A stretch of 64,000 nucleotides of DNA from Candidatus Rokuibacteriota bacterium. Its GTDB lineage: Bacteria > Methylomirabilota > Methylomirabilia > Rokubacteriales > CSP1-6. Of this stretch, positions 45,157 through 61,325 are shown in pieces. The stretch is from NCBI GenBank assembly GCA_016866775.1, contig VGLJ01000017.1, positions 1 through 64,000 on the forward strand. Reading direction: 5' to 3'. The notes under the pieces were generated by a model that saw only the letters and a list, made by a program, of their open reading frames with translations, was not told where the DNA came from and did no database searches. Each line of letters starts with the position of its first letter. Position 1 is the stretch's first letter. Both the position numbers and the translations under genes were made by a program.

Positions 45157-46133
45157 TGAGCGGTGGAATGGAGACAGACGGCCACGTCCGCAGGACAACG
45201 CCTCCTGCGATCAGCGGCGGTAGCCTTTCGGAAGCCGAGCTCCCCAGGGCCGGTGCGGCGTGGGTACCGAGCGCGCACGCCGAGTCGCCGTTCATGGAGG
45301 GTGCGCGACGACTGCGGAAGAGCGTCACGGCGCTCATCGGTCTCGCCATCGTCGTGCTCCTGCTCGTCGTCGCGATCTTCGCGGACGTCCTCGCCCCCCA
45401 CAACCCGATCGTCAACGACCAGCGTGCGATGTTCTCGACGCCGACGTGGGAGCACCCGCTCGGCACCGATCAGCTCGGGCGCGACATGCTGTCCCGCATC
45501 ATTCATGGCACGCGCATCTCGCTGCTGGTGGGCGTGTCCTCCGTGATCCTCGCGCTCTTCGTCGGCGTGCCGCTCGGCATGGTCGCCGGCTACTACGGCG
45601 GCCGCGTCGACCGCGGGATCATGCGGGTGATGGACCTCATCCTCGCGTTCCCGATCTACCTGCTCGCGATCATCCTCATGGTGATCTTCACGCCCACGGC
45701 GGGCCTGATCGGCACCATCAAGGTCACCGGGGCGATCGCGATCGTGCGCATCCCGATCTACGCGCGGCTCGTGCGCGGCAGCGTGCTGTCGATCAAGGAA
45801 AAGGAGTTCATCGAGGCATGTCGCGCGCTCGGCCAGCGCGACCCCGCGATTCTCTTCCGGCACGTGCTGCCGAACTGCCTCGCGCCGATCATCGTGACGA
45901 CCACGCTCGGCGTCGCCACGTCGATCATCGTCGAAGCGACGCTGTCCTTCCTCGGCCTCGGCACCCAGCCCCCGACCCCGAGCTGGGGCTGGGACTTGAA
46001 GGCGAACGTCTCGTTCATCCAGTCGAACGCGTGGCTCTCGGTCTTCCCCGGCCTCGCGATCTTCGTCACCGTGCTGGGCTTCAACCTCTTCGGCGACGGG
46101 CTGCGCGACGCGCTCGATCCGCGATTGAAATAG
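45156..46133 (+). CDS. ABC transporter permease (DppC-like)
   Basis: A 325-aa permease pairing with the DppB-like gene. A hydrophilic N-terminus of about 50 residues leads to LRKSVTALIGLAIVVLLLVVAIFADVLAP, then HPLGTDQLGRDMLSRIIHGTRISLLVG, the family hallmark. The coupling loop is IEACRALGQRDPAILFRHVLPN. PTPSWGWDL and FPGLAIFVTVLGFNLFGDGLRDALDP end the protein. No DppD/DppF-type ATPase gene follows, so ATP-hydrolysing subunits must come from elsewhere. Confidence 0.94.
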   Translation: MSGGMETDGHVRRTTPPAISGGSLSEAELPRAGAAWVPSAHAESPFMEGARRLRKSVTALIGLAIVVLLLVVAIFADVLAPHNPIVNDQRAMFSTPTWEHPLGTDQLGRDMLSRIIHGTRISLLVGVSSVILALFVGVPLGMVAGYYGGRVDRGIMRVMDLILAFPIYLLAIILMVIFTPTAGLIGTIKVTGAIAIVRIPIYARLVRGSVLSIKEKEFIEACRALGQRDPAILFRHVLPNCLAPIIVTTTLGVATSIIVEATLSFLGLGTQPPTPSWGWDLKANVSFIQSNAWLSVFPGLAIFVTVLGFNLFGDGLRDALDPRLK

Positions 46134-46249
46134 CGCGCCCGCGACGCGCGCGCGGTCTGTAACAAGGCGCATCCCGCTCCCGGGCCTCCATGGCATCGGT
46201 CTGCAGCCTTCTTTTCGTCGACAGAAAGAAGGACGTTGGAGGACCAGCC

Positions 46250-46960
46250 ATGAAGCGGGCGCATCTGGCGCATCTCAGGACAATAGGGCTGGCGACCGCG
46301 GCGGTGCTGCTCGTCTCGGGGCCGGCGGTGGCTCAGACGAGCACCGAGGCACCGGCTCAGACGGGCACCGATACGTCCACGTCGAGCGTGTCTCCCTCGA
46401 CCCCGTTGTCGGAGCTCACCGTCTCGGATCTGGTCAATGCGTGGCCGGAGGTCCAGTCGCAGTTCCCGGGCCTCAGCGTCGACGTGAGCCCGAACGTCGG
46501 TGTCGATGCGAACGTCGGGCTCAGCAACACGGACGCAAACGTCGGGGCGAACATCAGCCCGGGCGTCAGCATCGGCGGCGGCGACCAGACGGTGACGAGC
46601 GGCGTGCAGTCGGGGCAGACATCGGCGGACGTGAACTCTTCGTCCACGATGACCCAGGGCTCGACGTCGACGCAGACGTCCGGCACGGCGACGCAGCCGT
46701 CCCGCACGGCGTCATCGTCGGATTCGGGCGGCGCGGCGTCTCCGCCCACCACCTCGAGCGCCGATACGACCACCGTCAATCCGAAGCCGCGGGGCAGCAC
46801 GGGGCCCACGGTCGAGAGAAAGCGCGCGAGAAGCAGCGACGCTGAGGGATCTCCTCCCACGTTTCCCGCGCACATTGGGGCCGGCCTTCAGGCCGGCCCC
46901 ATCTTTTTCGCGATCGAGGCGGCGATCGTAACGAATCCAACGATGCCCGCACAGCTGTAA
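46250..46960 (+). CDS. secreted Ser/Thr-rich low-complexity protein
   Basis: Up to 236 aa, not recognised. Start ATG 46250 follows a TTGGAGGA ribosome site and opens a Sec signal peptide (RTIGLATAAVLLVSGPAVAQ). The mature part has a short ordered region (STPLSELTVSDLVNAWPEVQSQF), glycine/asparagine repeats of the type DANVG, then a long Ser/Thr/Gln-rich tail. The frame runs straight through a terminator-like hairpin at 46877-46908, so the last ~40 codons are probably not genuine. A frameshift into a neighbouring frame would end the gene at 46845, just before the hairpin. Confidence 0.6.
   Translation: MKRAHLAHLRTIGLATAAVLLVSGPAVAQTSTEAPAQTGTDTSTSSVSPSTPLSELTVSDLVNAWPEVQSQFPGLSVDVSPNVGVDANVGLSNTDANVGANISPGVSIGGGDQTVTSGVQSGQTSADVNSSSTMTQGSTSTQTSGTATQPSRTASSSDSGGAASPPTTSSADTTTVNPKPRGSTGPTVERKRARSSDAEGSPPTFPAHIGAGLQAGPIFFAIEAAIVTNPTMPAQL
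46877..46908 (+). terminator. intrinsic terminator hairpin
   Basis: GGGGCCGGCC (46877-46886), loop TTCA, GGCCGGCCCC (46891-46900) is a perfect 10-bp stem followed within 3 nt by TTTTT (46904-46908). It is the best rho-independent terminator in the window. It lies at the end of the secreted low-complexity gene. Confidence 0.8.
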
Positions 46961-46996
46961 CAACGCGAACGACGTCCGCCCACGCGCTGGTGGCAT

Positions 46997-47581
46997 GTGA
47001 TCGGCGGATCGCCGCCCAGCGGGGGTGTCTCCGCGTCCGCCCAGGTCTACGACCCGGTCACCGACACGTGGACGGACGGGCCGTCACTCGATACCGCGCG
47101 CACCACGTTGGGCGCAGCGGCCGTCGGCAACGTGATCTACGCCTACGCAGGCTACAACGGCGACGCCTACACCCCGTCGAGCCACTTCACCAGCCTCGAG
47201 GCCCTGACCGTCTCGGAGGCGCCGCCGCCGACCGACCAATGCGCCACGGATCTCGCGGCCGCGCTTGAGGAGATCGCCTCGCTCCAGGAGCAGGTCGGCG
47301 AGCTCCAGGCGCAGCTCACGAGCCTCACGCAACAGAACGCTTCGCTGAGTGCCCAGGTCGTCGCCTTGACCGCGGAGAACGCGCAGCTCCAGGCGACCGC
47401 GAACGCCGTCAGCACCGACCTGGCCGCGGTGCAGCAGGATCTGGCGCGCGCGTTCAGCAACAGCGGGTTCCAGCTTCCGGGCGCGACGCCGGTCGATCAG
47501 CTGAACAACCTCATCCGGGCGATCCTCGACCTCAATCTCGGGCGGAAGCAGGGCGTCTACAAGAACCTCGGAGGGCGATAG
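46997..47581 (+). CDS. Kelch-repeat fragment with coiled coil and conserved C-terminal module
   Basis: A 194-aa ORF from GTG 46997. Residues 1-55 hold the end of a Kelch propeller: VYDPVTDTWTDGPSLDTART and AAVGNVIYAYAGYNG. Normal Kelch proteins have several such repeats and a signal peptide; these are missing, so the 5' end appears lost. Residues about 80-148 form a heptad-rich coiled coil (LEEIASLQEQVGELQAQLTS...). Residues 149-194 form a module (F-x-L-P-G-A-T-P-x-x-Q-L-x-N-L-x-x-A-I) that recurs in the protein at 60286-60777. Probably secreted or cell-envelope when intact. Confidence 0.6.
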   Translation: MIGGSPPSGGVSASAQVYDPVTDTWTDGPSLDTARTTLGAAAVGNVIYAYAGYNGDAYTPSSHFTSLEALTVSEAPPPTDQCATDLAAALEEIASLQEQVGELQAQLTSLTQQNASLSAQVVALTAENAQLQATANAVSTDLAAVQQDLARAFSNSGFQLPGATPVDQLNNLIRAILDLNLGRKQGVYKNLGGR

Positions 47582-47614
47582 CGACGGCTCCAACGCCCGC
47601 AGGTGACCGGCCCA

Positions 47615-47649
47615 ACGACGCGCGATCCATCCGCCGGATCGCGCGTCGT
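47615..47649. terminator. perfect 14-bp inverted repeat
   Basis: ACGACGCGCGATCC (47615-47628) and GGATCGCGCGTCGT (47636-47649) are exact reverse complements around a 7-nt loop. It lies 34 nt after the coiled-coil gene and 44 nt before the DAHP synthase gene. It has no T-tract; it may still stop transcription or protect the mRNA 3' end. Confidence 0.6.
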
Positions 47650-47692
47650 CCACCCGTGAGTCGATCGGCGGCTGTGCGATAATCCCCGGCCT

Positions 47693-48748
47693 ATGCAGCG
47701 GACGTACGACCTCCGCATCGAGCACTACAAGCCGCTCCTGCCGCCGGCGATCCTGCTCGAGGAGCTGCCGCTTTCCGACCGCGGCTCCGAGACCGTCGCG
47801 CGCGGGCGGCAGGAGGTCTCGCGGATCCTGCGCGGCGAGGACGACCGGCTCGTGCTCGTCGTCGGCCCGTGCTCGATCCACGACACGGACGCCGGGCTCG
47901 AGTACGCGCGCCGGCTGAAGCAGCTCGCCGAGCGGCACGCGGGCGAGCTCTGCATCGTGATGCGCGTGTACTTCGAGAAGCCGCGTACCACCGTCGGCTG
48001 GAAGGGCCTCATCAACGACCCGAAGCTCGACGGCACGTTCGCGATCAACGAGGGCCTGCGCAAGGCGCGCCACTTCCTGCTCGACCTCGCCGACATGGGG
48101 CTGCCGGCCGGCTCCGAGTTCCTCGATCCGATCTCGCCGCAGTACACGTCGGACACCGTGACCTGGGGCGCGATCGGCGCGCGCACGACCGAGAGCCAGG
48201 TGCACCGCGAGCTCGCGTCCGGGATGTCGATGCCGATCGGCTTCAAGAACGGCACGGACGGCGGCGCGCAGATCGCGATCGACGCGGTGCGCGCGGCGGC
48301 GCATCCGCACCGCTTCCTCGGCGTCACCGAGCAGGGCCTGGCGGCGATCGTGTCCACGCGCGGCAACCAGGACTGCCACGTGATCCTGCGCGGCGGCGAG
48401 GGTGGACCCAACTACGACGCGATGAGCGTGCAGAAGACGGCGGCCGCGCTCAAGACCGCGGGCGTCGCGCCGCGGCTGATGGTCGACGCGAGTCACGGCA
48501 ACAGCAGCAAGGACTATCGCCGGCAGCCCGTGGTCGTGCACGACGTCGCGGCGCAGATCGCCGAGGGCGAGCGCGCGATCGCCGGCATGATGATGGAGAG
48601 CTTCCTCGTGGACGGCCGCCAGGACCTCGTCGATCCCGGCACGCTGCGCTACGGGCAGAGCATCACCGACGCGTGCATGGGCTGGGACATGACGGCGCCC
48701 GTCATCGCCGAGCTCGCGGACGCGGTGCGCGCGCGCCGAAAGCGGTGA
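47693..48748 (+). CDS. 3-deoxy-7-phosphoheptulonate (DAHP) synthase, class I
   Basis: A 351-aa enzyme that condenses phosphoenolpyruvate and erythrose 4-phosphate, the first step of aromatic amino acid synthesis. LVVGPCSIHDTDAGLEYA, MRVYFEKPRTTVGWKGLINDP, GSEFLDPISPQY, GARTTESQVHRELASG, and VDASHGNSSKDY are the AroF/G/H-type motifs, including metal-binding Cys and His. N-terminal residues contribute to feedback binding in this type, but which amino acid inhibits cannot be told. The stop overlaps the GTG of the CoxL-like gene, an unrelated partner. Confidence 0.96.
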   Translation: MQRTYDLRIEHYKPLLPPAILLEELPLSDRGSETVARGRQEVSRILRGEDDRLVLVVGPCSIHDTDAGLEYARRLKQLAERHAGELCIVMRVYFEKPRTTVGWKGLINDPKLDGTFAINEGLRKARHFLLDLADMGLPAGSEFLDPISPQYTSDTVTWGAIGARTTESQVHRELASGMSMPIGFKNGTDGGAQIAIDAVRAAAHPHRFLGVTEQGLAAIVSTRGNQDCHVILRGGEGGPNYDAMSVQKTAAALKTAGVAPRLMVDASHGNSSKDYRRQPVVVHDVAAQIAEGERAIAGMMMESFLVDGRQDLVDPGTLRYGQSITDACMGWDMTAPVIAELADAVRARRKR

Positions 48749-51069
48749 TCGGCAGCTCGCCGCGCCGCGCGGCCGACCAGCGCTTCGTCTTCGGCACCGG
48801 CCGGTTCCTCGACGACATCACGCCGGCCGGCCATCTCCACCTCGGCGTCGTGCGCAGCGTGCACGGCCACGCGCGCATTCGCTCGATCGATCTGACGGCG
48901 GCGCGCGCGCATCCCGGCGTCGTCGCGGCGTGGGCCGCCTCGGACCTTCAGGGTGTGGCGCCAACGTTGCCCACCGCGTACGGCGGAGGGCCCAAGGGGC
49001 GGCCGTGGGCGATTCCCGTGCTCGCCCGCGACGTCGCGCGCTACGCCGGCGAGCCGCTCGCCGTCGTCATCGCCGACGATCCGTATCGTCTCGCCGACGC
49101 GCTCGGCACGGTCGTGGTCGACGCGGAGCCCTTGCCCGCGGTGACGCGCGTGGCGGACGCGCAGCGCGCGACGACCACGGTTCACGCGGACTGGCCGGAC
49201 AACGCCGCGCTCGGCGTGAAGGGCGGCGTGGGCGACATCGACACGGCACTCGGCGCGGCGGACGTCGTGGTGCACGAGCGCTTCCGCCACGCGCGGCTCG
49301 CGGCCGTGCCCGTCGAGACGCGCGGCGTCCTGGCGTATCCAGACGGCGACACGCTGGTGGTGTGGTCGTCGACGCAGAGCCCGTACAGCCTGCGCGACGT
49401 CGTCGCCGCCGCGCTCGAGCTGCCGGCGGAGCAGGTGCGCGTGCTGATTCCCGACGTCGGCGGCGGCTTCGGTCCGAAGGGCGCGATCTATCCCGAGGAG
49501 ATCCTCGTCGCCGCCGCCGCGCGGAAGCTCGGGCGCCCCGTGAAGTGGGTCGAGAGCCGGCGCGAGAGCTTCCTCGCGATGGGGCACGATCGCGAGCAGG
49601 AGCACGACGTCCGCGTGGGCTTCCGCCGCGACGGCACGATCGTCGCGATCGACGGATCGTTCCTCGCGGACGTCGGCGCGTATCCCGCGCAGGGCGACGG
49701 CCTCACCGCGAACACCGTCAACCACCTCTGCGCGCCCTACCGCGTGCGCCACTACCGGAACGCCGGCACGAGCCTCGTCACGAACAAGACGTTCAACGCC
49801 GCGTATCGCGCCGCCGGCCGTCCCGAAGCGACCTTCGTGATGGAGCGGCTGATCGACATCGGCGCGCGACGGCTCGGGCTCGATCCCGTCGACGTGCGGC
49901 GCCGCAACCTGATCCGCGCCGACGAGATGCCGTACAAGCCGGGCCTCACCTACAAGGACGGCGTGCCGATCAACTACGACCCCGGTGACTTCCCCGCCGC
50001 CTTCGAGCAGCTGCTCGCGCGCTTCGGCTACGAGGACTGGCGCAAGCGCCAGGCCGCGCAACCCGCGGGCCCCAAGCGTCTCGGCATCGGCGTCGCGTGT
50101 TACCTGCAGGGCACGGGGCTCGGCCCGTTCGAGAGCGCGACCGTCCGTGTCGATCCGAGCGGCAAGGTCTACGTGCTGATCGGCGTCGTCGCGCAGGGCC
50201 AGGGCCACGCGACCACGCTCGCGCAGATCGCCGCCGCCGAGCTCGGCGCGCGGTTCGACGACGTGACGGTCGTCGCGGGCGACACCGCGCTCGTTCCGTA
50301 CGGCATGGGCACCGGCGGCAGCCGCGTGACCGCCAACGCGGGCCCCGCCGTGGCACGGACGGCGCGCGAAGTCCGCGCGAAGGCCGCGCGCGTCGCCGCC
50401 GAGCTGCTCGAGTGCGCGGCGGACGACGTGCGGATCGAGGAAGGGCGCGTGCACGTCGCGGGGCTGCCGACGAAGTCGCTGCCGCTCGGCCGCGTCGCCC
50501 ACGCGGCGATCAAGTCGAAAGCGCTGAAGCCGCTCGGCGAGCCCGGCCTCAACGCGTGCACGTACTTCTATCCCGACACGGTCACGTGGGCCTTCGGCGG
50601 CAGCGCGGCGGCCGTCGACGTGGATGCCGAGACGGGGGCGGTGCGCGTGCTCCGCTACGTGGCGACGCACGACCCGGGTCGCGCGATCAACCCCGTGATC
50701 GTCGAGGGTCAGCTCCAGGGAGGGCTCGTGCAGGGCATCGGCGCCGGCTTGATGGAGGCCGTGGTCTACGACGCCGACGGCCAGATGCTCACGGCGAGCC
50801 TGATGGACTACGCGATCCCGAAGGCGGCCGACGTCCCGTTCATCGAGGTGATCCTCGACGAGCATCCGTCGGTGATCAACGACCTCGGCATCAAGGGCGT
50901 CGGCGAGAGCGGCTGCATCGCGCCGGCCGCCGTCATCGCGAACGCGATCGAGGACGCGCTCGCCGAGCGCGGCGTGACGGTCCGCGAGGTCCCCGTCACG
51001 GGGTATTTGATATGGGGGGCCGCCTCTAGCGGCCCCCCAAGCCCCCCCGACGCTCCGGGCCGGGAGTGA
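48745..51069 (+). CDS. xanthine-dehydrogenase-family molybdenum hydroxylase large subunit (CoxL form-II-like)
   Basis: A 774-aa molybdopterin subunit. It has RFVFGTGRFLDDI at the N-terminus, IPDVGGGFGPKGAIYPEE, QGQGHATTLAQIAA and the C-terminal GVGESGCIAPAAVIAN. At the position that separates CO dehydrogenases it reads AYRAAGR (about residue 352), close to form II AYRGAGR and unlike AYxCSFR of true CO dehydrogenase, so the substrate is probably not CO. The FAD and [2Fe-2S] subunit genes are not adjacent. The last ~20 residues (after VPVTGYLIWG) are encoded by a dispersed hairpin repeat and are foreign to the family. Confidence 0.92.
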   Translation: MIGSSPRRAADQRFVFGTGRFLDDITPAGHLHLGVVRSVHGHARIRSIDLTAARAHPGVVAAWAASDLQGVAPTLPTAYGGGPKGRPWAIPVLARDVARYAGEPLAVVIADDPYRLADALGTVVVDAEPLPAVTRVADAQRATTTVHADWPDNAALGVKGGVGDIDTALGAADVVVHERFRHARLAAVPVETRGVLAYPDGDTLVVWSSTQSPYSLRDVVAAALELPAEQVRVLIPDVGGGFGPKGAIYPEEILVAAAARKLGRPVKWVESRRESFLAMGHDREQEHDVRVGFRRDGTIVAIDGSFLADVGAYPAQGDGLTANTVNHLCAPYRVRHYRNAGTSLVTNKTFNAAYRAAGRPEATFVMERLIDIGARRLGLDPVDVRRRNLIRADEMPYKPGLTYKDGVPINYDPGDFPAAFEQLLARFGYEDWRKRQAAQPAGPKRLGIGVACYLQGTGLGPFESATVRVDPSGKVYVLIGVVAQGQGHATTLAQIAAAELGARFDDVTVVAGDTALVPYGMGTGGSRVTANAGPAVARTAREVRAKAARVAAELLECAADDVRIEEGRVHVAGLPTKSLPLGRVAHAAIKSKALKPLGEPGLNACTYFYPDTVTWAFGGSAAAVDVDAETGAVRVLRYVATHDPGRAINPVIVEGQLQGGLVQGIGAGLMEAVVYDADGQMLTASLMDYAIPKAADVPFIEVILDEHPSVINDLGIKGVGESGCIAPAAVIANAIEDALAERGVTVREVPVTGYLIWGAASSGPPSPPDAPGRE

Positions 51070-51092
51070 ATCCCGGCCCTTCGCGAGTGCCC
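51014..51092 (+). repeat. double-hairpin dispersed repeat, copy 1
   Basis: Hairpin 1 is GGGGGGCCGC / GCGGCCCCCC (51014-51023, 51029-51038). A C-rich spacer with GACGCTCC follows. Hairpin 2 is GGGCCGGGA, loop GTGAA, TCCCGGCCC (51057-51079), then TTCGCGAGTGCCC. Hairpin 2 and its flanks are nearly identical to copy 2 at 55533-55603. The copy lies across the 3' end of the CoxL-like gene. It resembles REP/BIME-type elements in design. Confidence 0.8.
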
Positions 51093-51106
51093 GCGGTAGC
51101 GCGCGG

Positions 51107-51575
51107 TTAACCGGTCGGGATCGGAGGCGGCGGCGGGTACGCGTCGTCGGGGAACGGATAGTCCGGCGGCGCGACCGGCGGCAGCGGCGGCGGCGCGGCG
51201 ACCACATCCCGGGCCGGTGCTCCCAGCGCCAGCCACGATCGCGCTCGAAGCGCCAGAACGCGGCGGCGCGATGACGCTCGAGATGCCGGCGACGCTCCCA
51301 CTCGCGCCGATCCCATTCATGACGCTCCGCCGCGCGGCGGAACTCCCAGTGGCGCTGCTCCGCCTCGCGGCGACGCTCCCATTCGTGTGTGCGGCGCTCC
51401 AGGTGCTCGCGCCGCTCCTCGCGTCGTTCCTCGCGGCGCCCCTTCACTCGATCGCGGTGATCGTCCGTCGGTCCCTGTGTCGGTCGTTATCGCTCCAGGC
51501 GGGCGGCACCACGCTCAGTGTGGCCACCACCGCCAGAACTCCCAGGCCAAGCGCGCGACGAATTGCGGTACGCAT
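51107..51575 (-). pseudogene. secreted Arg/Glu-rich protein with Pro-rich tail, frameshifted twice
   Basis: ATG 51575 opens a signal peptide (MRTAIRRALGLGVLAVVATL, cut near AWS). The frame shifts near 51470. The next frame encodes a long Arg/Glu/Trp-rich helix built of repeats such as REERREERREH, EWERRREAEQRHWEF and HEWDRREWERRRHLE. A second shift near 51215 leads to a proline-rich end (APPPLPPVAPPDYPFPDD). The intact protein would be about 155 aa. I do not know its function; such charged periplasmic proteins resemble heptad-repeat envelope proteins. Confidence 0.65.
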
Positions 51576-51663
51576 CGCGTTTCACACTCCCGGCGGGACG
51601 GCCCGCCCCTATGTCTGTGTACATGTGACGTTGGGGCGGGCGCGTTGATTTACGCGCGGGGTG

Positions 51664-53082
51664 CTACCGATCGAGCCGCGGGCGTTTCGCGGCCCACGGC
51701 CGCGCTTCCTCGAACGCGGCCGACGCCTGCAGCACCGTGAGATCGGCGAAGCGCCGGCCGACGATCTGCAGGCCGACCGGCAATCCTGCCGGCGTGAAGC
51801 CGGCCGGCACCGTCGCCGCGGGCTGGCCCGTGAAGTTGAACGGATAGCTGAACGAGGCCCAGCCCAGCCAGTCCCAGAGGTTCGACGGCTGCGGCCAGTG
51901 CGCGGGGTTGATGCGGCCGCACTCGAACGCGGCGACCGAGAGCGATGGCGTGAGCAGGAGGTCGTAGCGCTCGAACAGCGGACGCACGCTGTCCCAGTAC
52001 GCGAGCTTCCGGCCGCGCATGTCGATGTAGTCGACCACGCTGTGGGAGAGGCCGTCCTCGATCGACGCGACGAGGCCCGGATCCATGCGCTCGCGCCACT
52101 CCGGGAGATAGCGCGCGTAGTTGCCCGCCTCGTGCGCGTTCCACATCATCCGGATCATGTGGTGCGAGTCGGCGAAGCCCGTCTTCACTTCCTCGACGGT
52201 GGAGCCCAGCGACTCGAACGCGCGCGCGGCCTCGCGGACGATCGCCGCCACGTCGGGGTCCACGCGCAGGGTGTCGAGATTCGGGCTGAACGCCACGCGC
52301 AGCCCGCGCACGCCCGCGCGCAGCTTGCCGACGTAATCGTCGACGGGGCCCGGCAGCGACGTGCGATCCCACTCGTCCGGTCCGGCCATCACGCTCAGCA
52401 TGAGCGCGGCGTCGGCGACCGTGCGGGTCATCGGCCCGTTGTGCGACGAGGAGTCGTTGTTCGAGACCGGATACATCGGCACGCGCCCGTACGACGGCTT
52501 CAGCCCGAAGATCCCGCAGAACGCGGACGGGATGCGGATCGAGCCCGCGCCGTCGGAGCCGTGATGCAGCGGCCCGAGCCCTGCCGCCGCCGCGGCGCCG
52601 GCGCCGGCGCTCGAGCCGCCGGTCGTCATCGCGGTGCTCCACGGGTTGCGCGTGCTGCCGGTGAGCGGGCTGTCGCCCATGCCCTTCCAGCCGAACTCGG
52701 GCGTCGTCGTCTTGCCGAGCATCACGCCGCCGGCGGCGCGCAGTCGCGGCACGAACGGCGCGTCCGCGTCGGGCACACGCGTCGCGAAGATGTGCGAGCC
52801 CGACATCGTGCGGATGCCCTTCGTGAGCGCGAGGTCCTTGATGGAATACGGGATGCCGTGCAGCGGGCCGAGCGCGCCGCCCGTCATCACCGCGTCTTCC
52901 GCGCGCTTCGCGTCCGCGAGCGCGAGCTCCGGCGTGGGCGTGCAGAACGCGTTGAGGGCGGGATTCAGCTTCTCGATGCGCGCGAGCACCGCGCGCGTCA
53001 GCTCGACGGGCGACAGCTTCTTCGCGCGGATGAGCGCGGCGAGCTCCGTGGCGGGCGTGTAGCAGAGGTCGACGTCTGTCAT
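51664..53082 (-). CDS. amidase (amidase-signature family)
   Basis: A 472-aa amidase-signature hydrolase. The Ser-cisSer-Lys triad is visible: Lys in IPYSIKDLALT, the cis-Ser in MTTGGSSAGAGAAAAAG, and the nucleophile Ser in GSDGAGSIRIPSAFCGIFGLKPS. The C-terminal FSYPFNFTGQPAATVPAG is typical. It splits an aliphatic or aryl amide into acid and ammonia or amine. It lacks GatB/GatC partners here and is not GatA-like in context. It is followed on the same strand (upstream) by the D-aminoacylase gene, 22 nt away, suggesting co-transcription. Confidence 0.92.
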   Translation of the reverse strand: MTDVDLCYTPATELAALIRAKKLSPVELTRAVLARIEKLNPALNAFCTPTPELALADAKRAEDAVMTGGALGPLHGIPYSIKDLALTKGIRTMSGSHIFATRVPDADAPFVPRLRAAGGVMLGKTTTPEFGWKGMGDSPLTGSTRNPWSTAMTTGGSSAGAGAAAAAGLGPLHHGSDGAGSIRIPSAFCGIFGLKPSYGRVPMYPVSNNDSSSHNGPMTRTVADAALMLSVMAGPDEWDRTSLPGPVDDYVGKLRAGVRGLRVAFSPNLDTLRVDPDVAAIVREAARAFESLGSTVEEVKTGFADSHHMIRMMWNAHEAGNYARYLPEWRERMDPGLVASIEDGLSHSVVDYIDMRGRKLAYWDSVRPLFERYDLLLTPSLSVAAFECGRINPAHWPQPSNLWDWLGWASFSYPFNFTGQPAATVPAGFTPAGLPVGLQIVGRRFADLTVLQASAAFEEARPWAAKRPRLDR

Positions 53083-53104
53083 GGGAGAAGCCTCCTCGAG
53101 ATCT

Positions 53105-54607
53105 TCAGCGGCCGCGACGCAGGCCGCGGCCGGGACGTGCGCCGGTATGACGGCCGTCGCGCGCGACCGCGGCGCCGTTGACGTAGACGGCGCGGATGCC
53201 CGTCGGCGCCTGCCGCGGCTCCGTGTACGTGGCGGCGTCGTCGATGCGCGCCGGATCGAACACGACGAGATCGGCGTAGGCCCCCGGCCGGATCGTCCCG
53301 CGGTCGAGGAGCTGGAACTTCGCCGCGGGCATGCCGGTCATCCGGTGGAGCGCGGTCGGCAGCTCGAGCACCTTCTCCTCGCGCACGTAGCGGCCGAGCA
53401 CGCGCGCGAAGCAGCCGTAGAGCCGCGGATGCGGATTGCCGCCGGTCGGCACGCCGTCGGAGCCGATCATCGTGGTCGGGTGGGCGAGCACGGCCTTCAC
53501 GTCGCGCTCGTCCATCGTGAACACCACGACCCAGCACGCGTCGCCTTCGCCGTCGAGCACGCGCTGCGCCGCGCCCTCCGTGTCCACGCCCCAGTTGGTC
53601 GCGAGCGTCGCGACCGTGCGGCCCTCCCACTCCGGATGCTTCGGCGAGGACGAGATCAGCACGTCGCCGCCCTCGAGCTGCCCGAGCCCGCCGGGGCTGT
53701 CGGCACGGAACGAGTTGTTCTGCATCACCGCGGCGAGCGTCGTGCTGCCGGCGGTGTACGGATACTGATCCGTCGTCACGTCGACGCCGCGCGCGCGCGC
53801 CTCGTCGATCAGCGCCAGCGAGTCCCGCACGCGGCCCCAGTTGCGGCGCCCGCTCGCCTTGTGATGCGAGATCTGCACCGGCACGCCCGCCTCTTCGCCG
53901 ATGCGGATCGCCTCACGCACGGCGTCGAGCAGCCCATCGGCTTCGTTGCGCATGTGCGTCGCGTACAGGCCGCCGCTCGGCCCGCGAAGCTCGCGCACGA
54001 GCGTGATGATCTCGTCGGTCTTCGCGTAGCGGCTCGGCTCGTAGATGAGTCCCGTCGAGAGGCCGACGGCGCCGGCGGCGACGCCTTCACGCACCCACGC
54101 CTTCATGCGATCGAGCTCGGCCGCGGTGGGCTCGCGCGTGTCGTTGCCCATCGCGCCGCGCCGCATCGAGCCCTGGCCGATGAGCACGGCCACGTTGCAG
54201 CTCGGCCGCACGCTGTCGACGCGCTCGAGGTACCCCTTGAAGCCCTCCCACGGCGTGGGATCGGCGTCGGGATGGAGGCGGCGGAATCGCACGAGCCCCG
54301 CTTCGAACGGGACGACGCCCGATCCGCAGTTGCCGACCACGTCCGTCGTCACGCCCTGCAGGACCTTGAACGGCACTTCGGGCTCGAGGATCACCGCGTA
54401 GTCGTCGTGGCTGTGGACGTCGATGAAGCCCGGCGCGACCGCGAACCCGCGCGCGTCGACCTCCACGTCGCCACGATGGGTCACGGTGCCGAACGCGACG
54501 ATCCGCTCGCCGCGCACGCCGACATCCGCCCGCAGCCCGGGCGCGCCCGTGCCGTCGAACACCGTGCCGCCCCGAATCACCAGGTCGAAGCGTTCTCCTG
54601 TCGCCAT
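53105..54607 (-). CDS. N-acyl-D-amino-acid deacylase (D-aminoacylase family)
   Basis: A 500-aa amidohydrolase-superfamily enzyme. Metal ligands and family motifs are present: GFIDVHSHDDY, the bridging Cys region TTDVVGNCGSGVVPF, QISHHKASGRRNWG and MIGSDGVPTGGNPHPR. The flanking beta-sandwich (MATGERFDLVIRGGTVFDGTG at the start, GAYADLVVFDP at the end) is complete. It releases D-amino acids from N-acyl derivatives, or acts on related N-acyl substrates. The start shares one base with the stop of the ROK kinase gene, forming an operon with the amidase. Confidence 0.93.
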   Translation of the reverse strand: MATGERFDLVIRGGTVFDGTGAPGLRADVGVRGERIVAFGTVTHRGDVEVDARGFAVAPGFIDVHSHDDYAVILEPEVPFKVLQGVTTDVVGNCGSGVVPFEAGLVRFRRLHPDADPTPWEGFKGYLERVDSVRPSCNVAVLIGQGSMRRGAMGNDTREPTAAELDRMKAWVREGVAAGAVGLSTGLIYEPSRYAKTDEIITLVRELRGPSGGLYATHMRNEADGLLDAVREAIRIGEEAGVPVQISHHKASGRRNWGRVRDSLALIDEARARGVDVTTDQYPYTAGSTTLAAVMQNNSFRADSPGGLGQLEGGDVLISSSPKHPEWEGRTVATLATNWGVDTEGAAQRVLDGEGDACWVVVFTMDERDVKAVLAHPTTMIGSDGVPTGGNPHPRLYGCFARVLGRYVREEKVLELPTALHRMTGMPAAKFQLLDRGTIRPGAYADLVVFDPARIDDAATYTEPRQAPTGIRAVYVNGAAVARDGRHTGARPGRGLRRGR

Positions 54608-55515
54608 CAGTCCCTTTCCGGCCCACCCTGTGCCGCGAGCGCCAGCGCACCGAGCACGCCCGCCCTCTCACCGAGCGCCGGCGCGACGATGAACTCCTCG
54701 ATCGCGCCGGCGAGCGCGGCGACGCGCACGTAGCCCGCGAGAATCGCCCGCACCTCGGCGCGCACGCGCCCGAGGAGCGTCGGGTGGCGCAGCACGCCGC
54801 CGCCGACGACGATCCGCTGCGGCGACAGCACGGTCACGACGTTCGCGAGCCCCAGCGCGAGGTACCGCGCCACGAGCGTCCAGACCGGATCATCGACCGC
54901 GAGCGCCTCGGGAGGCAAGCCCCGCCGGGCCTGGATGGCCGGACCGGATGCGAGGCCTTCGAGACAGTCGGCGTGGAACGGGCACCAGCCGGCGAAGTCG
55001 TCGCCCGGCGCGCGTGGGACGCGCATGTGGCCCATCTCCGGATGCGCGAGGCCGTGAAGCGGCCGGCCGCCGACCACCGCGCCGCCGCCGATGCCGGTGC
55101 CGACGGTCACGTAGACGAGCGGATCGCACTGCGTGCCCGCGCCCCACCGCCATTCCGCGAGGGCGGCGCCGTTCACGTCGGTGTCGATGGCGACGGGCAC
55201 CACGAGTGCGCGACGCAGCGCACCGACGACATCGGCGCCACTCCATCCGGGCTTTGGCGTGGCGGTGATGGAGCCGAAGGTCGGCGACGCGGGATCGAGA
55301 TCGAGCGGACCGAAGCTGGCGACGCCGACCGCGGCGGGGCGGTGCTCGCGGAAAAAAGCGGCCGCGCGCGCGAGCGTCTCGTCAGCCGTCGTGGTCGGGA
55401 AGCACGCGCCGGCGCGCACGTCGTCCGGACCGCTCCCGACGGCGCACACGGTCTTGGTCCCGCCCGTCTCGATGCCGCCGAACGTCCCGCCTCCCACGAG
55501 GGAGGAACGTACCAC
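54607..55515 (-). CDS. ROK-family sugar kinase (fructokinase-like)
   Basis: A 302-aa ROK protein. GGIETGGTKTVCAVG is the ATP-binding phosphate-1 loop, DTDVNGAALAEWRWGAG holds the catalytic Asp, and VGTGIGGGAVVGG phosphate 2. The ROK zinc motif is seen as HPEMGHMRV followed by CPFHADCLEGLASGPA. This pattern is closest to the bacterial fructokinase group (Mak/GmuE-like). No helix-turn-helix domain is present, so it is an enzyme rather than a NagC-type repressor. It is the first gene of the kinase, D-aminoacylase, amidase unit. Confidence 0.9.
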   Translation of the reverse strand: MVRSSLVGGGTFGGIETGGTKTVCAVGSGPDDVRAGACFPTTTADETLARAAAFFREHRPAAVGVASFGPLDLDPASPTFGSITATPKPGWSGADVVGALRRALVVPVAIDTDVNGAALAEWRWGAGTQCDPLVYVTVGTGIGGGAVVGGRPLHGLAHPEMGHMRVPRAPGDDFAGWCPFHADCLEGLASGPAIQARRGLPPEALAVDDPVWTLVARYLALGLANVVTVLSPQRIVVGGGVLRHPTLLGRVRAEVRAILAGYVRVAALAGAIEEFIVAPALGERAGVLGALALAAQGGPERD

Positions 55516-55532
55516 GGCGGACTTTCGACCTT

Positions 55533-55603
55533 GGGGGGCGAGACGCCCCCCACCCCCCCGGCGCTCCGGGCCGGGAGTGAATCCCGGCCCTACGCGAGTG
55601 CCC
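55533..55603 (+). repeat. double-hairpin dispersed repeat, copy 2
   Basis: Hairpin 1 is GGGGGGCG / CGCCCCCC (55533-55540, 55544-55551). The spacer carries GGCGCTCC. Hairpin 2 is GGGCCGGGA, loop GTGAA, TCCCGGCCC (55568-55590), then TACGCGAGTGCCC. It differs from copy 1 only in the stem of hairpin 1 and a few spacer and flank bases. It fills the gap between the ROK kinase start and the receiver-gene 3' end. Confidence 0.8.
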
Positions 55604-55923
55604 TACGCCGCGGCGAGTAGCTCGGCGACGGCGCCGCGCACGACGTTGACGTCGATCGGCTTGCGGATCGTCAGGTCCGCGCCGAGGTCGCGGGCGACGC
55701 GCAGCGCATTCATCCCCCCGGCGCTCCAGCCCGCGGACACGGCGATCACGCGGGTCGCCGGGAACTCGCGGCGGATCACGGCCAGCGTCTCGAACCCGTC
55801 CTGCTCGGGCATGTAGAGATCGAGAAGCACCAGATCGGGATGACAGACATGGCAGGCCTCCGAGGACAGTGCGCTCAGGCGAGCGCGGCTTGGCCGTCGG
55901 CGTCGATGCGGACGCGGGCCCAC
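55603..55923 (-). pseudogene. response-regulator receiver domain, 5' end lost
   Basis: The C-terminal two-thirds of a receiver is clear. The phospho-acceptor Asp is in DLVLLDLYMPEQDGFETL, the Thr/Ser switch is in RVIAVSAGW, and Lys in TIRKPIDVNVVRGAV. The N-terminal acidic pair (DD) and first helix are missing. In the upstream DNA the frame merges with the end of another gene (55875-56105), where the join reads DGQAALA / ALSSEACH across a small frame change. A deletion seems to have fused the two. Confidence 0.7.
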
Positions 55924-56105
55924 CCCCGCGTGCGAAGCGGTTCGTCGACGGTGAGCCGCCGACGCTCCGTCATGGCGGCGGAGACCGGCTGGTCGCCCCG
56001 CCGGTCGAGCACGATGCCGAGGCGCGCGGACTCGACGAACGTCTCGCGGAGGGCCGTGTAGACGTCCGGGCGATTGCGTGCCACGACGTACAAAATTCGG
56101 GTCAC
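55875..56105 (-). pseudogene. hypothetical protein truncated by fusion to a receiver gene
   Basis: A 76-aa ORF beginning MTRILYVVARNRPDVYTALR, followed by a segment with VLDRRGDQP, then MTERRRLTVDEPLRTRGWARVRID. I recognise the general layout as a small cytoplasmic protein of unknown function, in which an arginine-rich middle section normally sits between VLDRR and the GWARVR end. The last residues (ADGQAALA) look like receiver-domain sequence, not its own. So its C-terminus, and perhaps part of the middle, has been lost at the fusion point. Confidence 0.5.
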
Positions 56106-56172
56106 GCCAGCGAATCCAGCAACCGGCGTGCCGCGTAAGTCCTGCCCTCCGAATGAGAAAAGATTCTCTCTC

Positions 56173-56667
56173 TCAGCGCGCCGCCGGGCGCGAAGCGAGG
56201 CCGATCACGCGGCCGACCTGGGGTGGGCGGGGCAGCGCGTCGTGCGCCGCCTGGATCTCGGCGAGCCGCGCGAGCACGTCCGTCGCCATCGTGGCACCGC
56301 GGCGTGTCTCCAGGGCAACGTGGAGCGACATCAGCTCGTTGGTCGCGGCGAGGTAGCCGTCGGTGGCGTGATACATCGCGTGCACGTAGTGCAGGCGCTT
56401 GGCGTCGTGAGCGAGGAGCTGGGTCGTGAAGCGCAGCGCGTCCCCCGCACGCACCTCCCGATGGTACGTCACGTGCGCTTCGAGGCAGAACGTGGTCACG
56501 CGATGCGCCCGCCGGTGCGCGGCGTCGAGCCCGACCCACCGAAAGAACTCGTCGGTCGCGAAGTCGAAGACGACGAGGTAGTAGCCCATGTTCATGTGGC
56601 CGTTGTGATCGATCCATTCGGGACGGACGACGTCGCGGTAGGAATCGAGTGGCGTGTCGATCGCCAT
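56173..56667 (-). CDS. hotdog-fold acyl-CoA thioesterase (4-hydroxybenzoyl-CoA-type)
   Basis: A 164-aa single hotdog protein. RPEWIDHNGHMNMGYYLVVFDFATDEFF has the DxNxHxNxxxY pattern of the 4HBT group, with Asp and His placed for thioester hydrolysis. EAHVTYHREVRAGDALRFTTQ is the central strand pair. Start ATG 56667 (MAIDTPLDSY) is preferred over an upstream one that overlaps the divergent P-loop gene. It probably hydrolyses short or aromatic acyl-CoAs; betainyl-CoA-type thioesterases look similar. Confidence 0.86.
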   Translation of the reverse strand: MAIDTPLDSYRDVVRPEWIDHNGHMNMGYYLVVFDFATDEFFRWVGLDAAHRRAHRVTTFCLEAHVTYHREVRAGDALRFTTQLLAHDAKRLHYVHAMYHATDGYLAATNELMSLHVALETRRGATMATDVLARLAEIQAAHDALPRPPQVGRVIGLASRPAAR

Positions 56668-56710
56668 GCCGCGCGGCAGCGTACCATACGCCGCGGAGGG
56701 CTCCTCGCGC

Positions 56711-57624
56711 GTGGCCGAGATCATCTTCGTGGAAGGCGTGCCCGGCGCCGGGAAATCGACGACGGCCCAGTTCCTCGCCCGGCAGCTCGCGGCGCACGGG
56801 CGTCCCGCGCGCTGGATCTAGAGGAAGAAATCCCCAACCCGTTCGTGCCGTCGGCGCCGCCGCTCGGGCTCGTCACGTGGCAGGAGGCCACCTGGGAGCA
56901 ATTCGCGGACGCGCACGTCGCCCGCTGGCGCGACTTCGCGCGCGCGGCCGCGGACACACCGGAGGTGATCGTCGCCGAGAGCTTCCTTTTGCAGCGGCCG
57001 GTGTTCACGATGCTCCGGCGAGACGCCGATCCCGCCGCCATCGAAGCGCTGGTGAATCGCTTCGCCGATGCCGTGGCGCCGCTCGAGCCCACGCTCGTTT
57101 ATCTCTCGCACCCCGACCCCGAGGCCTCGTGGCGCGCGGTGATGGCGAAGCGCGGGGGCGGTGAGCTCGCCGCCGCGGTCCAGCGGAGCGAGGACTGGCC
57201 GTTCACCCGGTCGCGCGGTCTCGCGGGACTCGGATGAAGATCCACGTGATCGACGTCGCGGCCGGCACATGGGCCGAGCGGCGTTGGAAGATCTGCACGC
57301 TGCTCGGGATCGCGTCGGACGAGGCGGCGCCGCCGGCGCGCGACACGCTCGCGCCGCTCGCCGGCCGTTACTGCAACGGAAACGAAGAGATCACGATCAC
57401 GCTCGAGGACGAAGGCCTCGTCCTGCGCGGCACGCTGTGGGCATCGAATATGCTCCTGGTCGTCGCCCCGGGTCTGTTCGACGTCGAATCGTGGCCGCTG
57501 CGCATCCGATTCGAGGATAATGCGGCCGGCGTGCCGCGGCGTGCCGCGCGTGTTGCGCTGGGAAGGCGCACGGCTCTGGTGGGGCGGACCCGGAGGCGCG
57601 TATGAGCGAGTTCACGACCAGTGA
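56711..57624 (+). pseudogene. P-loop NTPase/kinase-like protein with C-terminal beta domain, three lesions
   Basis: GTG 56711 gives EIIFVEGVPGAGKSTTAQFL, a Walker A site. A 1-nt loss at about 56819 (ATCTAC to ATCTA) creates an early stop; the next frame continues EEEIPNPFVPSAPPLGLV to SEDWPFTRSRGLAG. A larger deletion at about 57232 shifts to a frame with DVAAGTWAERRWKICTLLGIA and a beta-rich end (GRYCNGNEEITITLEDEGLV, FDVESWPLRIRF). There a 10-nt tandem duplication (57529-57548) breaks the last part, which in the restored frame reads LRWEGARLWWGGPGGAY and stops at 57624. Function is unknown. Confidence 0.72.
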
Positions 57625-58265
57625 CGGTGTTCGACTGGCCTACGCGATCGACGATTTCGCCGATCCGTGGAAGCCGAAGGACACCGTCATCCTCCTCCAC
57701 GCGGCGATGTCCAACCTCCGCCGCTTTTAGTCATCCGGAGCGCGTCGGGAAGCTCGCGCTGTTCTCGAGCACGCCCGGGCTCTCGTACGCGCGACCGGAA
57801 GCGCGCGTCCCGACGTGGCCGGCGATCGTGCGCGAGAAGGGCGTGGACGGTCTGCTCGCGGAAACGGTCGCGGCGCGCGTCGATCCCGGGCGCGTCGACG
57901 CGGGGTTCATCCTCTGGATGCTCGACGAGGCGAAGCGGATGAATCGCGAGTTCACGGCGCGCTTCCTCGACACGATGGCGCGGCTCGATCTCGGCGCGCG
58001 CGTGCGCGAGATCAAGGCGCCGACGCTGGTCGTCGTGGCGGGCGCGGACACGGTCTGCGGGCAGGACGGGTACGAGAAGCTGCGCGCGATCCCGAACCAC
58101 GAGGGGGTCGTGTACGAGGGCGAGCCGCACAACGTCACGAACGGCGTCCCCGACCGCTGCGCGACGGACCTCAGGCGCTTCCTCGCCGGCCGTGAGCGCC
58201 GACTGTATCAACTCGTGGACATTGACTCACCTATCTGCCATCGAGACGCTTTCCGTAAGCCATGA
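57602..58265 (+). pseudogene. alpha/beta hydrolase missing its catalytic core
   Basis: ATG 57602 starts MSEFTTSDGVRLAYAIDDF and reaches VILLHAAMSNLRRF, the oxyanion strand, then stops at 57729. The other end resumes in a new frame as HPERVGKLALFSSTPGL and runs through the cap and the acid strand (VVVAGADTVCG). About 60-70 residues, including the GxSxG nucleophile elbow, are absent. The frame runs on to 58265, overlapping the vapB start. The product cannot be an active hydrolase. Confidence 0.78.
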
Positions 58266-58471
58266 CTACGGTGACCTTGTCGACCAAGTACCAGCTCGTC
58301 CTGCCGCGTGAGGCTCGCGAACGACTGAAGCTCCGCCCGGGGACGAAGCTCACCGTCATGGAAAAGGGCGGTGTCATTTACCTCGTCCCCGAGCGTCCGC
58401 TCCGCGAGTTCCGGGGAGTCGCGGCAGGGCTGAACCCCCGAGGGGTGCGAGAAAAGAAAGATCGCCTCTGA
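58262..58471 (+). CDS. AbrB/SpoVT-type antitoxin (VapB-like)
   Basis: A 69-aa swapped-hairpin AbrB-family protein: TLSTKYQLVLPREARERLKLRPGTKLTVMEKGGVIYLVP is the full DNA-binding domain. The C-terminal tail (REFRGVAAGLNPRGVREKKDRL) is the usual toxin-binding part. In such modules the antitoxin represses its own operon and blocks the PIN toxin encoded next. The stop TGA overlaps the toxin's CTG start at 58468. Confidence 0.88.
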   Translation: MTTVTLSTKYQLVLPREARERLKLRPGTKLTVMEKGGVIYLVPERPLREFRGVAAGLNPRGVREKKDRL

Positions 58472-58835
58472 TCCTGGTCGACTCGAGACGCTGGATCGAA
58501 TATCTCGCCCATCGCCCGCTCGCCAGGCGCTTCGCCCCATACCTGGAAGGTCGCGAACCGCTCGTCGCGTCAGCGATTCAGATCTATGAAGTCTACAAGG
58601 CCATGCGACGCGATTTTTCGGAAGACCGAGCCGTGACCGCGGTCGCAGCACTCCGGCACAGCATGATCGTTCCTGTCGATGAATCGCTCGCCTTGGATGC
58701 GGCGGACCTCGCGCTCCTGCACCGGCTGGCGATGGCGGACGCCCTCGTCTATGCGACGGCGCGCCGTCACAGCGCGAGATTGATCACCACGGATACGGAC
58801 TTCGCGGTCTCCCCGACGCTCTGGTGGTTCGCTAG
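58468..58835 (+). CDS. PIN-domain ribonuclease toxin (VapC-like), C-terminal 1-nt frameshift
   Basis: Translation probably starts at CTG 58468 (ILVDSRRWIEYL), since no ATG, GTG or TTG fits. Acidic metal ligands are present: Asp in ILVDS, Glu in IQIYEVYK, Asp in MADALVYATA and Asp in TTDTDF. The sequence after TTDTDF suggests a 1-nt loss near 58808. In the restored frame it reads AGLPDALVVR and stops at TAG 58833-58835, sharing CTAG with the convergent peptidase stop. As written, the frame runs to 58896 with an unrelated tail. The RNA target is unknown. Confidence 0.8.
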
Positions 58836-60262
58836 CGGTTACCCCGCCGCGCGGTCTCGTAGTGATCGGCCAGCACCTGCGCCACGCATGCGGTGACCTT
58901 CATGCCAGTCGGCAGGTCGAGGAACTCGTTCGGGCCGTGCGCGTTGGAGCCGGGCCCCATCACGCCGGTGATGAGGAACTGCGCCTGCGGGAACCGCTCA
59001 CCGAGCATGCCCATGAACGGGATCGAGCCGCCGAGGCCCTGGTACATCGCCGGCTTGCCGAAGTAGGTCTTCGACGCACGCTCCGCGGCGTCGAGGAGCC
59101 ACGGCGCCGTCGGCGGCGCCGCCCAGCCGTTGCCCGGCGCGTCGATCGAGTACGTGACCTTCGCCCCGTACGGTGGGTCCTTCTCGAGCAGCGCCTTCAG
59201 CGCCTCGCCGGCGCGGAACGCGTCGCGCGTCGGCGGCAAGCGGAGCGAGAGCTTCACCGTCGTCTGCGGGCGCAGCACGTTGCCGCCGTCGGCGGGGAGC
59301 GGAAGCCCGGCAGCGCCGGTGATCGCGAGCGCGGGCCGCCACGTGTTGTTGAGGTCGAGCTCCACGGGGTCGTGGCTCAGCGCCCGCATGCCCGGCACGA
59401 ACGGCCATTTCGTGCCGATCTCGTCACCGAGCACCTGCGCGACCGCGCGCGCCTGGTCGACGCGCTCCTTCGGAATGTCGACGTGAAAGTCGCGCGGGAT
59501 GATCGCTCCCGTCTTCTCGTCCTCGAGGCGCGAGAGGAGCTGTCGCACGATGCGGAAGCTCGACGGCACGATCCCGCTCGCGGCGCCCGAGTGCACGCCT
59601 TCGGTCAGGACCTCGACCGTGAGATCGCCGTTCACGATGCCGCGCAGTGACGTCGTTCCCCAGAGCTGGTCGTAGTTCCCGCAGCCGGAGTCGAGACAGA
59701 CGACGAGGCTCGGCGTGCCGACCTTCGCGGCGAGCGCGTCCATGTACGCCGGAAGGTCGTAGCTACCGCTCTCCTCGCACGCCTCGATCAGCACGAGACA
59801 TCGCGCGTGCGGCACACGTGCCGCCTGCAGCGCTTCGATGGCCGTGAGCGCGGCGAACGTCGCGTAGCCGTCGTCGCCGACACCGCGTCCGAACAGCCGA
59901 TCGCCCTTCCGCGCGGGGACCCATGGCCCGAGCCCCTCGGCCCAGCCGACCATCTCCGGCTGCTTGTCGCAGTGCCCGTAGAGCAGCACGGTCTCGTCCG
60001 ACGCGCCGGGCACGTCGATGAGGATCACGGGCGTGCGGCCGGGCAGCCGATGGACTTCGAACGAGAGCCCCTCGATCGCGCGCTTCACGCTCCAGTCCTC
60101 GAGGAGCGCCACCGCGCGGTCGATGTGGCCGTTCTCCTTCCACTTCGCGTCGAAGTGCGGTGACTTCGCGGGGATGCGGATGTACTCGGTGAGCGCGGGG
60201 ACGATGCTGCCGTCCCACACCTTGTTGACGTAGTCGCGGGTGGCGGTGGCGTCGATGGTCAT
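58832..60262 (-). CDS. M20-family metallopeptidase
   Basis: A 476-aa M20 (ArgE/DapE/CPG2-type) zinc peptidase. LLYGHCDKQPEM gives the first His and Asp, GRGVGDDGYATFAAL the bridging Asp, and IEACEESGSYDLPAYM the catalytic Glu and metal Glu. The lid/dimerisation domain follows (TEGVHSGAASGIVPSSFRI), and the end has PGSNAHGPNEFLDLPTG with a metal His. It likely removes a terminal residue from dipeptides or N-acyl amino acids, in line with the peptide importer and D-aminoacylase. It is convergent with vapC by CTAG. Confidence 0.92.
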   Translation of the reverse strand: MTIDATATRDYVNKVWDGSIVPALTEYIRIPAKSPHFDAKWKENGHIDRAVALLEDWSVKRAIEGLSFEVHRLPGRTPVILIDVPGASDETVLLYGHCDKQPEMVGWAEGLGPWVPARKGDRLFGRGVGDDGYATFAALTAIEALQAARVPHARCLVLIEACEESGSYDLPAYMDALAAKVGTPSLVVCLDSGCGNYDQLWGTTSLRGIVNGDLTVEVLTEGVHSGAASGIVPSSFRIVRQLLSRLEDEKTGAIIPRDFHVDIPKERVDQARAVAQVLGDEIGTKWPFVPGMRALSHDPVELDLNNTWRPALAITGAAGLPLPADGGNVLRPQTTVKLSLRLPPTRDAFRAGEALKALLEKDPPYGAKVTYSIDAPGNGWAAPPTAPWLLDAAERASKTYFGKPAMYQGLGGSIPFMGMLGERFPQAQFLITGVMGPGSNAHGPNEFLDLPTGMKVTACVAQVLADHYETARRGNR

Positions 60263-60285
60263 GAGCGCATGGTACCGCGACGGCG

Positions 60286-60777
60286 GTGTCGCGCTCAGCG
60301 GCGCCCCCGAACACGGAGCTGCTAGCTCAGGTCAACATGCTGACGAGGCAGAAGACGCGGCTGGAGGGGCAAGTCAGCGCGCTCTCCACGCAGAACTCCA
60401 CGCTGCAGGGCGAAGTCAACACGGTCACCACGCAGAACACACGGCTGCAAGACCAGGTCGATGCGCTCACCGCGCAGAACACGCAACTGCCGAGGACGAA
60501 CACGACGCTGCAGAACGATCTCGCCGCGGTGCAACCGACGATCGCCGCGCGTGATACGCTGATCGCGCAGCTCCAGGCGCAGCTCGCGGCGCAGACGCAG
60601 GTCGCGACGGCGATGACGACAACGGTGACGGCCAGCGTCGATCTCGTCGAGGTGCCGCTGCAGCAGGCGTTCAACAGTCCCAACTTCACGATCCCCGGCA
60701 CGACGCCAGCGGAGCAGCTCGAGAACCTGACCGAAGCGATTGCGGCGTTGAAGAACGGAGCGGCGCCACGAAGATGA
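60286..60777 (+). CDS. coiled-coil protein with conserved C-terminal module
   Basis: A 163-aa ORF from GTG 60286. Residues about 9-85 are a long heptad coiled coil with 7- to 14-residue repeats (LSTQNSTLQGEVNTVTTQN, TRLQDQVDALTAQN). Residues 125-163 hold the module L-x-x-A-F-x-x-x-x-F-x-I-P-G-T-T-P-x-x-Q-L-x-N-L-x-x-A-I, matching the end of the protein at 46997-47581 at about half of aligned positions. No signal peptide is visible and the start lies close to the peptidase start, so the 5' end is probably lost. Function is unknown. Confidence 0.6.
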   Translation: MSRSAAPPNTELLAQVNMLTRQKTRLEGQVSALSTQNSTLQGEVNTVTTQNTRLQDQVDALTAQNTQLPRTNTTLQNDLAAVQPTIAARDTLIAQLQAQLAAQTQVATAMTTTVTASVDLVEVPLQQAFNSPNFTIPGTTPAEQLENLTEAIAALKNGAAPRR

Positions 60778-60800
60778 AGAAGAAGTAACGCCTGAAGACG

Positions 60801-60834
60801 CCATGGCCCCGGGTGGTAGCATCCGGGGCCATGG
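60801..60834. repeat. perfect 12-bp inverted repeat covering a start codon
   Basis: CCATGGCCCCGG (60801-60812) and CCGGGGCCATGG (60823-60834) are exact reverse complements around a 10-nt loop. The ATG inside the right arm (60831-60833) is the start codon of the nitroreductase gene. In RNA the hairpin would bury both the start codon and the region where a ribosome site should be. It may also end transcription of the coiled-coil gene. Confidence 0.7.
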
Positions 60835-61325
60835 ACGCCTACCGCGCCGTCGTCGACAAGCGGGACCAGCGCGCGTTCCTTCCCAGGCCGATCCCCGACG
60901 AAGCGCTGCGGCGCATCCTGCAGGCGGCGCGCATGACCGGCAGCTCCAAGAACAGCGAGCCCAATCGGCTCGTCGTCGTGCGTGACCCCGACCGAAGAGC
61001 CGCGCTGGCCGCGGTCGGCGCGTTCGCGAAGTTCCTCGTACAGGCGGCGGCGGTGATCGTCATCGCGCAGACGCAGCGGCACGAGTTCGACGCCGGCCGG
61101 TGCGCGCAGAACATGATGGTCACCGCGTGGGGCGAAGGGATCGGCTCGTGCCCCGCGCACCTGCCCGAGGCCGAGGTCGCGAAGCTGCTGAAGATCCCGG
61201 CCGATCTGCACGTCAACCGCGTGATCGCCTTCGGCTACGTCGAGGCCGCGCGCGCGACCGCGCCGAAGTCCGTCGCCCGAAAGCGCAAGCCGCTCGACGA
61301 GCTCGTGCACTGGGAGACCTGGTGA
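60831..61325 (+). CDS. nitroreductase family protein
   Basis: A 164-aa FMN-dependent nitroreductase-fold protein, on the short side for the family. MDAYRAVVDKRDQRAFLPRPIPDEALRRILQAARM gives the N-terminal RxxRxF-type FMN-phosphate site; SSKNSEPNRLVVV the second contact; and AWGEGIGSCPAHLPEAEVAKLLKIP the C-terminal FMN/dimer region. The lower central part is shortened. Start ATG 60831 lies inside a perfect inverted repeat. The stop overlaps the cyclase GTG. Confidence 0.85.
   Translation: MDAYRAVVDKRDQRAFLPRPIPDEALRRILQAARMTGSSKNSEPNRLVVVRDPDRRAALAAVGAFAKFLVQAAAVIVIAQTQRHEFDAGRCAQNMMVTAWGEGIGSCPAHLPEAEVAKLLKIPADLHVNRVIAFGYVEAARATAPKSVARKRKPLDELVHWETW

Follow-up and report, generated by a model that had tools for sequence, protein, structure and literature searches.

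Two open frames on the forward strand of the window (the 64,000-nucleotide stretch of contig VGLJ01000017.1 of a Candidatus Rokuibacteriota bacterium), here termed A and B, end in a similar C-terminal tail, which raises the question of whether the tail is a module joined to different proteins or the shared terminus of two paralogues. The frames and their parts are listed in Table 1.

Similarity of A and B from linker to tail

The tail similarity between A and B is real. The two tails align without a gap over 34 residues, 16 of which (47%) are identical (tail A 47441-47542 and tail B 60658-60759; LARAFSNSGFQLPGATPVDQLNNLIRAILDLNLG / LQQAFNSPNFTIPGTTPAEQLENLTEAIAALKNG), and the local score of 79 compares with a mean of 19 (sd 4) and a best of 42 among 2,000 shuffles (z 15). 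Used as a query against its own genome, the tail of A recovers B at E 9.2e-5 and has no other match, while the tail of B recovers A at E 1.3e-4. An earlier note on this DNA had placed the tails at these positions, alike at about half of 34 aligned residues and each preceded by a coiled coil, all of which is borne out; its description of the second protein as otherwise different is not.

The coils in front of the tails also align, with 24 of 55 residues identical in a gap-free stretch (44%), and a full alignment from the linker to the end has 42% identity with one large gap. B has ~39 residues more than A between the coil match and the tail, and the two matches follow in the same order in A and B. 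A near-full B query against the genome returns B and A only; in this 5.13 Mb GC-rich genome these are the only copies found, at loci 13 kb apart. B is thus paralogous to A along almost its entire length.

Table 1. Features of frames A and B and their surroundings (positions in the window)
Feature	Position	Strand	Basis or remark
Terminator-like hairpin upstream of A, 11 pairs then TCTTTTT	46876..46901	+	
Open frame A, 206 codons + stop: Kelch remnant, linker, coiled coil, tail	46961..47581	+	Coding-like codon use in frame
Probable Kelch propeller remnant, ~last 1.5 blades	46985..47182	+	Pfam Kelch_1 E 1.9e-9, starts mid-blade
Predicted long helix / coiled coil of A (residues 91-168)	47231..47464	+	AlphaFold2, heptad pattern
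Tail A: AF....FxLPGxTP turn and predicted final helix (residues 177-201)	47441..47578	+	Alignment, AlphaFold2
Open frame B, 170 codons + stop: linker, coiled coil, tail; paralogue of A	60265..60777	+	
Predicted long helix / coiled coil of B (residues 16-136)	60310..60672	+	AlphaFold2, heptad pattern
Stretch of B missing from A (net ~39 residues)	60535..60657	+	A/B alignment
Tail B: AF....FxIPGxTP turn and predicted final helix (residues 148-163)	60658..60774	+	Alignment, AlphaFold2

Probable truncation and coding status

The preferred reading, with a probability of about 0.6, is that A and B are diverged, probably 5'-truncated paralogues of one linker-coil-tail gene, in which the tail caps the coil. 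The parent gene would have encoded the linker, the coiled coil and a terminal helix-turn-helix and, in the line of A, a Kelch propeller in front of these. Both copies would then have lost their 5' part, with A retaining ~1.5 Kelch blades and B starting at the linker. Kelch repeats were perhaps never present in B; hence, the parental architecture is drawn from one copy. The loss is proposed to have occurred by deletion, the tail to act as a cap, and the frames to be either remnants or weakly constrained genes.

The Kelch region of A resembles propeller proteins of the Kelch_1 family (PF01344) in having two stretches of repeats that score over the family cut-off, but differs from them in that only ~1.5 blades are left, which is too few to close a propeller. 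The region opens mid-blade at ~46985, some 10 codons or less from the stop at 46958-46960, and is joined to the coil by a linker, APPP. B opens at 60265, adjoining the start of a divergent M20 peptidase gene at 60262, and begins at a similar linker before the coil; no Kelch repeats are found in B by Pfam. A signal peptide is not seen by eye in either frame, although the frames themselves may be truncated. As A starts inside the Kelch region, B starts at the linker, and neither shows a signal peptide, both are probably 3' remnants of genes whose 5' part was lost. An assembly error may also lie behind the truncated look.

The Kelch proteins read in relatives of the phylum are mostly ~320-400 amino acids long or more and, unlike A, end without a coiled coil or such a tail. 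The sole other Kelch protein found in the same genome (L026; G000:C6:73000-77500) has a 375-codon open frame with a lipoprotein-like signal (VIAAVAGC); lacking both coiled coil and tail, it was rejected as a relative. Upstream of A, a Ser/Thr-rich, secreted-looking frame (46190-46960) passes through the strong terminator-like hairpin and stops at a TAA in frame with A, which makes its 3' end doubtful; an alternative frame ends shortly ahead of the hairpin, with its stop at 46843-46845. Between A and a DAHP synthase gene lies a perfect inverted repeat with arms of 14 bases, a loop of 7 bases and no T run (47615-47649). No Rfam family is detected in 46000-61500.

Codon use is coding-like in both frames but falls below that of the neighbours (0.25 in A and 0.15 in B vs 0.34-0.61 per codon). 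In the tail, codon positions 1, 2 and 3 are identical at 22, 20 and 15 of 32 codons, where composition predicts 9.2, 8.2 and 12.6; over 37 codons of the coil, the counts are 24, 25 and 19 for an expected 11.0, 11.5 and 14.6. Positions 1 and 2 are, thus, far more alike than composition predicts and position 3 slightly so. Third positions are thus close to saturated and the protein is further from it, as expected of an old split with some constraint. The pN/pS of A vs B is ~0.75 with a bootstrap range of 0.53-1.02, by which neutral drift is possible.

Under another reading, A and B are not remnants: each would be a whole, expressed gene for a small coiled-coil protein restricted to this lineage. 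The open frames of 170-206 codons, their codon use, the conservation excess at positions 1 and 2, and, in B, a candidate ATG at 60337 preceded by AGG are consistent with complete genes, but A starts mid-blade with no clear ribosome-binding site and sits behind the terminator-like hairpin, and no sigma-70-type promoter-like site is found near A or B (a weak test in this organism). This reading is, on balance, unlikely.

A shared module or the end of a paralogous pair

The earlier note took the tail to be an undescribed module shared by different proteins, perhaps for envelope sorting, anchoring or assembly. That the tail is undescribed holds: searches of A and B against Pfam and NCBIfam give Kelch and coil matches only, with weak coiled-coil noise over the tail itself, and a PDB sequence search with tail A finds nothing significant. 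A literature search on Kelch, coiled coil and Rokubacteria likewise found no paper. A free-standing module with a sorting, anchoring or assembly role in envelope proteins, attached to unlike coiled-coil proteins, would account for a tail conserved at 47% with no family model; it is nevertheless improbable, as the coils are homologous too, more members are absent from ~760 genomes and from the pattern scans, no signal peptide is seen by eye, and the tail has neither a hydrophobic segment nor a sortase motif. Conservation does not set the tail apart from the coil, as identity is 47% in the former and 44% in the latter. Judged from the alignments, the tail is the terminal part of two paralogues and not a module common to unrelated proteins.

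The tails share their C-terminal position with LPxTG and PEP-CTERM sorting tails. By contrast to these, they have no hydrophobic segment: the most hydrophobic 19-residue windows average 0.75 and 1.01 (Kyte-Doolittle), and both lie outside the tail. The LPGAT and IPGTT stretches do not fit the sortase LPxTG pattern. Together with the lack of a visible signal peptide, this leaves sorting or anchoring at the envelope without support.

No third family member is found in ~760 genomes overall. The tail is absent from 95 genomes of the phylum and from 388 wider relatives. Profile searches of 195 relatives, the check proposed by the earlier note, return weak matches only, as do those of 369 genomes of another phylum and two tiny phyla, and all prove unrelated on reading. 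Two motif scans over 84,980 species genomes find no true member, where prefilters that require short conserved stretches could let diverged members escape. Viral contigs, plasmids and phages also yield none. The search scope is that of these genome, viral, plasmid and phage collections, which may omit records very near this genome.

Among the candidates rejected, six weak tail matches in relatives and three other weak matches turn out on reading to lie in frames or proteins of no relation. The LPGDTPVEQ stretch of a sirtuin-like protein is taken as chance among the 369 genomes, and the match of an adenylate-cyclase-like protein spans 21 residues, most of which belong to a helix. Three pattern matches in the genome collection and fifteen in viral sequences are likewise attributed to chance.

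The earlier note had named two outcomes that would speak against its module. One, a lack of further family members, is what was found within the searched scope. The other, a match due to chance or low complexity between two unrelated coiled-coil proteins, is very improbable: coil composition is biased, and the coil score of 110, although reached by none of 2,000 heptad-preserving shuffles, is approached by them (maximum 108) such that the coil evidence on its own is modest, but the tail match, with its z of 15 and genome-wide E of 9e-5, is collinear with the coil match.

The tail as a putative coil cap

Both frames have the heptad hydrophobic pattern of a coiled coil within a long predicted helix, with L/I/V/M at 15 of 20 places in two heptad columns of A and at 23 of ~35 in B. 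In AlphaFold2 models, which are of monomers and rest on two-sequence alignments, the coil is predicted with a pLDDT of mostly 88-97 over residues 101-160 of A and of 93-98 over residues 21-120 of B, while that of the tail is moderate (~58-79). The predicted tail is made up of the last part of the long helix, a PG-TP turn and a short second helix. That second helix lacks clear amphipathicity, as 0.27 and 0.06 of shuffles reach a hydrophobic moment as high. A Foldseek search of PDB with the model of B has no match below E 4.7.

From these models, the tail is best read as a helical cap that would close an oligomeric coiled coil. The parent coil would have oligomerized the chain, and the tail (the long-helix end, an F-x-[LI]-P-G-x-T-P turn and the short helix) would pack on the coil end, cap it and fix its register. 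A role in coil assembly is, thus, possible and is the preferred guess for tail function. That the tail represents a new type of helix-turn-helix cap, one that terminates coiled coils and sets their register, in a family known so far only from this genome, is doubtful.

The foldon of T4 fibritin offers a likeness in working principle only, as a short folded element at the C-terminal end of a coil. The foldon is beta-structured. By contrast, the tail of A and B is predicted, in models of monomers, to form a helix-turn-helix, and tail A has no PDB sequence match. The foldon is a 27-residue trimerizing domain (PMC5496177).

With no relative in any other genome searched, A and B form a small pair of orphan genes and not carriers of a widespread sorting or anchoring module. 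The record is thereby corrected, in that the supposed shared module is the terminal part of a paralogue pair. If expressed, the pair would make up a small family of orphan coiled-coil proteins in a lineage that is poorly studied, and it might provide a compact coil cap.
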